Origin: Olsenella porci
GTDB lineage: Bacteria; Actinomycetota; Coriobacteriia; Coriobacteriales; Atopobiaceae
DNA length: 64,000 nucleotides
NCBI RefSeq assembly: GCF_009695875.1
Contig: NZ_VUNC01000005.1
Coordinates: 124,001 to 188,000 of the forward strand
Reading direction: 5' to 3'
The position numbers and the translations under genes were made by a program. Below, in pieces: positions 37,917-39,960 of this stretch. Position 1 is the stretch's first letter, and each line of letters opens with the position of its first letter. The notes under the pieces were generated by a model. That model saw only the letters and a program-made list of their open reading frames with translations. It searched no databases and was not told the DNA's origin.

Positions 37917-38822
37917 TCACGCCGCGTCTGTGTTCTCGCCGCCGGAGAGCCGGCCTCGAAGCTCGCGCAAAAACTCCGCGGCGTCGCCGTCCACCAGCAC
38001 GGTCTGGTCGGCAATCGCGGAGGGCGCGATCGTCTCGCCCATGTTCACCTGCACGTAGGTCGCCTTGGGGTTCTGCGACGCCATGCGCCAGAAGGGGTAC
38101 TTGATGATGACTGGCGTGTTAGCGCCCACGCCCAGCTCGAGCAGCACCACGGAGCCCGACTCGTGCGCCGCCACAAAGTCCTGGTAGCGCCCGAGCGCGA
38201 CGTGCCAGCCCTCGTCCTCCACGAACGTGTCGTCGCAGCGGAGGTTGGGGACCATGACCCTGCCGCAGCGAGGGCAGCGGGGCACCAGCTCGCTGGGCAC
38301 GCGCATGTCGCGCTGGTCTCGCACCATCAGGCGCACGAGGTCCTCGTTGTCGTAGGTTGCCTGGTGGCAGGGCTCGGGACACTGCAGCAGGCCGTAGTCC
38401 CCCTGCGTGTAGAACAATCGCGACCGGTCGACGCCCGCACGCTGGAACTGGTGGTCGACGTTGGTGGTGAGCACAAAGTACTCGCGCCCCCGCAGCATGC
38501 GAACGAGATCCTGGTACGGACGGCCCACGGGACACGCGTAGCGGTTGACCCAGATCATGCGGCTCCACCAGGCCCAGCGGGTCTCGTCGTCCGGGAAGGG
38601 GTAGAACCCGCCCGCATACATGTCGGTGATCCCAAACCGGTCGCGGAAGTCGGCGAAGTCCTTCTCAAACCGGGGCCCCGAGTAGTGGAACCCCGCGGCG
38701 GTGGAGAGACCCGCACCGGCTCCGACCAGCACCGCGTCCGCCCGTTCGATCGCCCGAGCGACCCTATCGACCGACTCCGAGAAGCTCCCCGTAGAGCCGC
38801 TGATCCACTGGCTTGAAGACAT
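37917..38822 (-). CDS. SirTM-class sirtuin (protein ADP-ribosyltransferase type)
   Basis: The protein has 301 residues. NAD-binding motif is VLVGAGAGLSTAAGF. The usual sirtuin TQNID is TTNVDHQF, and the segment that normally carries the catalytic His reads LFYTQGDYGLLQC, with Gln in its place, as described for SirTM proteins that ADP-ribosylate rather than deacylate. The zinc module is QCPEPCHQ with CPRCGRVMVPNLRC. It overlaps the macrodomain gene by 59 bp with its own RBS (GGAGGTGG). Family knowledge: SirTMs are paired with a macrodomain hydrolase and usually target a lipoylated GcvH-like carrier. Confidence 0.88.
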   Translation of the reverse strand: MSSSQWISGSTGSFSESVDRVARAIERADAVLVGAGAGLSTAAGFHYSGPRFEKDFADFRDRFGITDMYAGGFYPFPDDETRWAWWSRMIWVNRYACPVGRPYQDLVRMLRGREYFVLTTNVDHQFQRAGVDRSRLFYTQGDYGLLQCPEPCHQATYDNEDLVRLMVRDQRDMRVPSELVPRCPRCGRVMVPNLRCDDTFVEDEGWHVALGRYQDFVAAHESGSVVLLELGVGANTPVIIKYPFWRMASQNPKATYVQVNMGETIAPSAIADQTVLVDGDAAEFLRELRGRLSGGENTDAA

Positions 38823-39564
38823 CGAAGACCACCTCCGTCTGGTTTTTCGTCTCACGCTTCCACGCGCGCACCGTCGACGCCGCGACCTCCGCCGCCTCCC
38901 GGTTGGGATAGCGGAACTCCCCCGTGGAGATGCAGCAGAACGCCACGCTGCGCAGGCCCCTCTCCGCCGCCAGGTCAAGGCACGAGCGATAGCAGCTGGC
39001 GAGAAGCTCGCGGTCGCGCGCCGTGGGGACCTCCCCGTACACGATCGGTCCCACGGTGTGCAGGACATGCCCCGCCGGGAGGTTGTAGCCGCGCGTCAGC
39101 TTGGCCCCTCCCGTTGGCTCCTCGTGGCCCTGGGCCCGCATGATGCGCGCGCACTCAAGGCGCAGCTGGACCCCCGCGTAGGTATGGATGGCGTTGTCGA
39201 TGCAGCGGTGGTTGGGCACAAAGCAGCCCAGCATCTGGCTGTTGGCGGCGTTGACGATGGCGTCGACCTGGAGCGTGGTGATGTCGCCGCGCCACACCGC
39301 GAGCCCGTCGTCCGTGAACCCGAGGTCGTCCACACGCGTGACGCCGCCGCGCTCGGCGAGGCGACCTTGCAGGTACTCGTCCTGGACGCGGAGAAACTCG
39401 TCGCCCACGGGCCGCGGGGGCCTCACGTTGAGAAGGCCGCGCAGCAGGAGCCGCTGGCCCTCCCCGTCGGGAGGAACCCGGATCCCGCCGAGGTCGTCCC
39501 TCTCCCCCATCAGCGCGTCTATGAGCCACAGGCGCCTCTGGTCCTGCGTCATCTGGTCGTGCAT
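38764..39564 (-). CDS. Zinc-type macrodomain ADP-ribosyl hydrolase (SirTM-linked)
   Basis: The protein has 266 residues. About 90 helical residues precede the macrodomain, which starts near VWRGDITTLQVDAIVNAANS. The sequence LGCFVPNHRCIDNAIH contains the Cys/His/Cys set typical of the SirTM-linked zinc macrodomains. Further motifs are GGAKLTRGYNLPAGHVLHTVGP and CCISTGEFRYPN. It should bind or remove ADP-ribose added by the sirtuin encoded downstream. RBS GGGGGAGG precedes ATG 39564. It is the first gene of this two-gene operon. Confidence 0.92.
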   Translation of the reverse strand: MHDQMTQDQRRLWLIDALMGERDDLGGIRVPPDGEGQRLLLRGLLNVRPPRPVGDEFLRVQDEYLQGRLAERGGVTRVDDLGFTDDGLAVWRGDITTLQVDAIVNAANSQMLGCFVPNHRCIDNAIHTYAGVQLRLECARIMRAQGHEEPTGGAKLTRGYNLPAGHVLHTVGPIVYGEVPTARDRELLASCYRSCLDLAAERGLRSVAFCCISTGEFRYPNREAAEVAASTVRAWKRETKNQTEVVFDVFKPVDQRLYGELLGVGR

Positions 39565-39960
39565 GTGGCCTCCCCCCACGTCCCGAAACAGGGCGCACCC
39601 AACTTGTCATATCGTTGTTGACAGGTTCTTGTAATTATTGACTTTACACGTTTTGTCCACGCAGGGCTCCGTGGAGGCGCTGGCGACCTTTGCCAGAACG
39701 CCCCCCACTGGAGCAGCGGTCACGAACAGAGCAAAGATGGGTGAGATGAGAACGGTCCCAGTCAAACGAAACGGGGCCCGCAAGACGGAACGAAGAGAAA
39801 TCGCTTACGCGTTTATACCGTTTACCATCGAATACTAACCGTTCGCGGCTAATAATCTTCGCTTTTCTTCGCTTTTATCCCTTTCCTTCGCTACGTGCTA
39901 TCTTTGTGAAGGACTCGTAGTGGATGCGTGGAGCATCCGAGCGAAGGAAAGGAGCGCGAG
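39565..39960. other. Divergent intergenic region with PTS promoter
   Basis: No supported gene (a 66-codon frame at 39638-39838 has no RBS or recognisable sequence). AT-rich stretches near 39615-39660 and 39790-39900 mark promoters for the macrodomain operon and the PTS gene. Confidence 0.5.
39857..39892. promoter_or_regulatory. Direct repeats, probable DeoR operator
   Basis: CTTCGCTTTT occurs twice in tandem (39857-39866, 39867-39876) and CTTCGCT again at 39886-39892. DeoR-family repressors commonly bind short direct repeats, and a DeoR gene follows the PTS gene. Confidence 0.5.

Follow-up and report, generated by a model that had tools for sequence, protein, structure and literature searches.

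The overlapping sirtuin and macrodomain genes of Olsenella porci

The locus described here lies in a 64,000-nucleotide stretch of the Olsenella porci contig NZ_VUNC01000005.1 (the window) and consists of two overlapping genes on the reverse strand. The first (38764..39564) begins with an ATG at 39564, just 5′ of which we read a Shine-Dalgarno sequence, GGGGGGAGG (39569..39577, reverse strand), and codes for a 266-residue protein with a zinc-loop macrodomain (Zn-Macro), a predicted mono-ADP-ribosyl hydrolase. The second (37917..38822) begins with an ATG at 38822 and codes for a 301-residue class M sirtuin (SirTM), a predicted mono-ADP-ribosyltransferase. The first-pass annotation of the window had already pointed out their overlap of 59 bp, which we place at 38764..38822 on the reverse strand. 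The Shine-Dalgarno sequence of the sirtuin gene, GGAGG (38832..38836, reverse strand), is situated inside the macrodomain gene, 9 nt upstream of the sirtuin ATG, suggesting translational coupling, and it is likely that the overlap itself reflects such coupling. A promoter scan of the intergenic region found nothing.

The window SirTM matches the Streptococcus pyogenes protein SpySirTM (PDB 5A3A) over 261 residues (E=1.2e-68), and the alignment places Q140-G141 at the position of the HG motif of other sirtuins, with the Gln opposite the catalytic His as initially reported. The Coriobacteriia class M sirtuins in our alignment also keep the QG. The QG motif, the similarity to SpySirTM and the linkage to a Zn-Macro gene place the protein among the class M sirtuins, and by homology it is predicted to be an ADP-ribosyltransferase. 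One might instead take the sirtuin fold and the weak matches to deacylase models to mean that it is a deacylase, with the macrodomain clearing O-acyl-ADP-ribose; MacroD-type macrodomains can indeed hydrolyze O-acetyl-ADP-ribose. However, the class M copies examined carry Gln instead of the catalytic His, and the SirTMs assayed earlier were without deacylase activity (PMC4518038), making this reading highly improbable.

The partner protein scores 342 bits against the NCBIfam protein-ADP-ribose hydrolase model NF003163 (cut-off 272), is also matched by PF01661, and aligns with SauMacro (5KIV/8RSL, E about 1e-74), MorMacro (8RSI, E=1e-71) and SpyMacro (8RSM, E=5e-61). Its C114, H119 and C121 align with the His118 loop of SauMacro and form the eight-residue C-x4-H-x-C zinc loop characteristic of Zn-Macro, bearing out the initial assignment to the zinc type. 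The SauMacro alignment is nearly full-length from residue 9, and the N-terminal helical bundle of these proteins is thus likely to be present. By homology, the protein would be a mono-ADP-ribosyl hydrolase. The basic patch that binds GcvH-L is not kept: R172, K175 and R183 of SpyMacro are replaced by a gap, Y and D, respectively, and R175 and R176 of SauMacro align with Y and G (patch residues as named in PMC11490716). These catalytic signatures and the operon structure are direct readings of the DNA.

Conservation of the pair and its mobile relatives

We compared 129 SirTM loci, 49 from a Coriobacteriia sample and 80 from a scan of named genomes. In 114 of them a Zn-Macro gene lies within 6 kb of the SirTM gene, nearly always on the same strand and with a median gene overlap of 37 bp; such consistency indicates that the association is not due to chance. 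Some copies of the pair are plasmid-borne. These features, namely a compact two-gene cassette, overlapping genes for a writer and an eraser with the would-be antidote first, and carriage on plasmids, recall toxin–antitoxin modules such as DarT/DarG, in which case the SirTM would be a toxic ADP-ribosyltransferase neutralized by the macrodomain as antidote. We consider this unlikely: in 15 of the 129 loci no macrodomain lies within 6 kb of the SirTM gene, which speaks against the antidote being obligate; SirTM shows a conserved linkage to genes for redox enzymes and for stress regulators, as detailed below; and PADLOC returned no match. Phage-defence NADases also exist among sirtuin-family proteins, and an NAD-consuming anti-phage system might be envisaged on that ground; however, the conserved neighbors are metabolic or redox genes rather than defence genes, and with no PADLOC match we rejected a defence system as very improbable.

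The viral and phage collections yielded one viral contig with a Zn-Macro and three phage-collection records matching SirTM. One of these three, OR849908.1, deposited as a Staphylococcus phage, holds the extended S. aureus SirTM operon (GcvH-L, macrodomain, SirTM and LplA2; L177 in our set) and is probably host DNA. Two further sirtuin arrangements were encountered. In the Coriobacteriia loci L033-L041 and L050, the cassettes lack a macrodomain and encode two or three sirtuins in tandem that have diverged strongly, two of them with QG and one degenerate (EG and an altered NAD motif), often adjoined by TetR or Rrf2 regulators. In Lactobacillaceae plasmids (L181 and hits H12-H20), the gene for a distant SirTM-like sirtuin overlaps one annotated as a cupin-domain protein, and the same records hold a second SirTM-like match.

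Absence of the lipoyl machinery

In Staphylococcus and Streptococcus, the extended operon combines genes for GcvH-L, Zn-Macro, SirTM, LplA2, OYE and LLM. The window SirTM is homologous to its counterpart there (about 37-40% identity) and the window Zn-Macro is about 49% identical to the S. aureus protein; unlike in those bacteria, carrier, ligase and lipoylation all appear to be lacking in O. porci, and the macrodomain has not kept the basic residues that contact GcvH-L. A translated search found neither GcvH nor LplA within about 10 kb of the window pair, in agreement with the first-pass annotation, which had seen no adjacent carrier or lipoate ligase gene. The genome-wide search that it proposed extends this to the entire O. 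porci assembly (G000; 2.36 Mb, 98.95% complete): the GCV_H, Biotin_lipoyl and BPL_LplA_LipB profiles gave no match and LplA-B_cat only a sub-threshold one of 15 bits, while each lipoyl or biotinyl profile matched 13 or 14 of 14 control genomes.

The relatives present a comparable picture. Only 8 of the 80 SirTM-bearing Coriobacteriia genomes encode a true GcvH (at least 127 bits) and 12 a lipoate ligase, leaving 68 without any lipoate-attaching enzyme; where these genes do occur, a different contig or a distance of hundreds of kilobases separates them from the SirTM gene. Matches of 20-25 bits to GCV_H in relatives were not counted as GcvH, covering only about positions 40-74 of the profile and mostly coinciding with biotin carriers. 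In other groups, 38 of 46 SirTM-bearing genomes (mostly gut Clostridia, including many metagenome bins of unknown completeness) are without a lipoate ligase over the cut-off. The O. porci genome has no detectable biotinyl/lipoyl domain or biotin/lipoate ligase at all; most of its SirTM-bearing relatives retain a domain of the biotin-carrier type.

The first-pass annotation had allowed for a carrier encoded elsewhere in the genome or for a different target. Although a lipoylated carrier is the only proven class of SirTM substrate (PMC4518038), the modification of a lipoylated (GcvH-L-like) or biotinylated carrier from elsewhere is very hard to sustain in a genome without GcvH, lipoyl/biotinyl domain or ligase, and among relatives that mostly lack the ligase or encode it far from SirTM. 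With no profile match above threshold, we rejected a lipoyl carrier elsewhere; this option is excluded within the reach of sequence searches, and thereby a different target is supported. The annotation had also considered that close relatives might keep lipoyl genes beside the operon, pointing to a recent loss in O. porci. The two core enzymes are indeed shared with the extended operon, as expected of a remnant left after the loss of GcvH-L and LplA2. However, translated searches of 141 SirTM neighborhoods found GcvH or LplA in none, while the same queries detected, in an S. aureus record, homologs of both that flank the genes for the macrodomain and SirTM, and in our phylogenetic tree the clade that surrounds the window SirTM is made up of lipoyl-free loci. 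A recent loss was hence rejected and appears extremely improbable.

Thus, with no lipoyl machinery in the genome, relatives mostly without a ligase, no linked GcvH or LplA and a basic patch that is not kept, a lipoyl-dependent mechanism appears very unlikely in O. porci, and within Coriobacteriia such action of SirTM can, judging by the genomes searched, only be an exception at most. That the O. porci pair works independently of lipoate is something of which we are largely confident.

Redox gene neighborhoods and the FMNFd protein

Lone SirTM/Zn-Macro pairs recur beside redox genes in Coriobacteriia, Clostridia, Spirochaetes and Enterococcus. One recurrent neighbor is a protein of about 205 residues, here named FMNFd, with an FMN-split-barrel domain and usually a ferredoxin domain. 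It is identified by sequence as an FMN-split-barrel joined to a 2[4Fe-4S] ferredoxin (2HHZ, E=3e-25); a confident structure model (pLDDT 94) shows the same domains, its top Foldseek matches being PNP-oxidase-like flavoproteins. FMNFd occurs in 48 of the 129 SirTM loci, mostly on the same strand and directly upstream, and a divergent HxlR-type regulator and an NmrA-like protein are encoded in 49 and 23, respectively. Other recurrent neighbors are quinone oxidoreductases, Rrf2 regulators, nitroreductase, SPASM radical SAM, DUF1848, SnoaL-like and hydrolase-like proteins. The enrichment is sharply local: at up to 1.5 kb from the pair, FMNFd reaches a density of 123 per Mb (45 of its 49 matches in these loci) and HxlR one of 93 per Mb, compared with about 1 and about 2 per Mb, respectively, at distances above 3 kb. 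The first-pass annotation's description of the pair as minimal does not carry over to the many genomes where the pair is set in a redox gene cluster. In six loci (L066, L067, L077, L083, L099 and L124), FMNFd adjoins a SirTM for which no macrodomain was found, tying FMNFd to the sirtuin. Public annotation shows a similar redox setting for the plasmid-borne pairs of Roseburia, Treponema and Enterococcus; in the latter two, the FMN-domain protein is without the ferredoxin part.

At the level of whole genomes, FMNFd is present at E≤1e-25 in 36 of 298 Coriobacteriia genomes, of which 33 have SirTM (115 SirTM-bearing overall), and in 44 of 395 genomes from the order of Ruminococcus flavefaciens, of which 39 have SirTM (96 overall); Fisher tests, which ignore shared ancestry, give p=2e-12 and p=4e-22, respectively. 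The gene lies within 4 kb of SirTM in 20 of 37 copies in the former and 34 of 50 in the latter. It is hard to account in any other way for adjacency that recurs across separate phyla, and the linkage shows co-function, as distinct from modification. At the same time, FMNFd cannot be a universal SirTM target, because only those 48 of the 129 SirTM loci have it. The linkage in relatives, like the genome-wide lack of lipoyl genes, is observed directly in the sequences. No mention of this linkage was found in the literature searched, which included only a minority of subscription papers.

The window pair itself is flanked by a PTS transporter/DeoR-like pair and a LuxR-like gene, with no adjoining FMNFd. 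O. porci encodes a second SirTM, 70% identical to the first (contig C9, 112948-113832), likewise paired with a Zn-Macro gene, divergently upstream of which lies an FMNFd gene (C9, 111448-112050). Our tree places beside the window SirTM, with a support of 0.977, a sister clade of copies from relatives, most of them FMNFd/Rrf2-linked. The simplest reading would be that the window pair is a paralog that left the FMNFd cluster, or else a separate arrival; its target may be shared with the second pair or different.

Some loci show further variations. In L084 (8325-10142, forward strand), known from a single draft genome, a PIG3-type NADPH:quinone oxidoreductase and SirTM form one in-frame fusion (605 residues), with a Zn-Macro gene downstream and a divergent HxlR regulator upstream; an unfused homolog of this oxidoreductase is a separate upstream neighbor of SirTM in L146. 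Radical SAM and nitroreductase genes lie upstream of other pairs (L118, L121, L135, L140, L158 and the Roseburia plasmid locus L179), those of L179 matching the annotated ACGX-repeat peptide (acgA/acgM) system. It hence looks as if some SirTM pairs adjoin a peptide-modification cassette.

Discussion

SirTM and Zn-Macro are known from earlier work (PMC4518038, PMC11490716) as lone pairs, as part of the extended lipoyl operon and as fusions, and since lone pairs figure in both reports the two-gene form is not new in itself. The lone pairs of Methanobrevibacter oralis (the source of MorMacro), Treponema pedis and Enterococcus faecalis likewise have adjacent genes, a QG sirtuin and a Zn-loop macrodomain in an operon without GcvH-L and LplA2 (PMC4518038, PMC11490716); what sets O. 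porci apart is that its genome as a whole is without lipoyl machinery and that two divergent pairs coexist in it. In the fungal fusion Mfs1, linked to oxidative stress in Candida (PMC4518038), macrodomain and SirTM also bring writer and eraser together, and the structure 8RSN matches both window proteins, but here the genes are separate and the similarity is weaker. Flavin oxidoreductases are neighbors in both the extended operon and the lone-pair system, but they belong to different families. An archaeal lone-pair Zn-Macro failed to demodify GcvH-L in vitro, and the targets of SirTM/Zn-Macro systems outside the extended operon were stated in 2024 to be unknown (PMC11490716).

Hence, we propose that the overlapping genes constitute a writer/eraser switch: the SirTM would move ADP-ribose from NAD+ onto an acidic protein side chain, from which the Zn-Macro protein would take it off again, without the lipoylated carrier on which the staphylococcal and streptococcal system relies. 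The switch would serve in redox or electrophile stress, acting on a flavin/iron-sulfur oxidoreductase, with the FMNFd of the second pair as the leading candidate for its partner or target. On balance, we favor this explanation as a whole as the probable one. Its parts differ in standing: homology makes the writer and eraser activities very likely, the gene neighborhoods make a redox role reasonably likely, and direct targeting of FMNFd, the weakest step, is a tentative suggestion. Equally speculative is the wider proposal of a large lipoate-independent SirTM/Zn-Macro branch, common in gut anaerobes, that might reversibly ADP-ribosylate the FMNFd family as part of a redox-stress module with HxlR/Rrf2 regulators and quinone oxidoreductases.

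GcvH-L is so far the only known SirTM substrate; given that many SirTM-bearing genomes are apparently unable to attach lipoate, a second class of substrates is likely, for which the recurrent flavin/ferredoxin neighbor offers a named and directly testable candidate.
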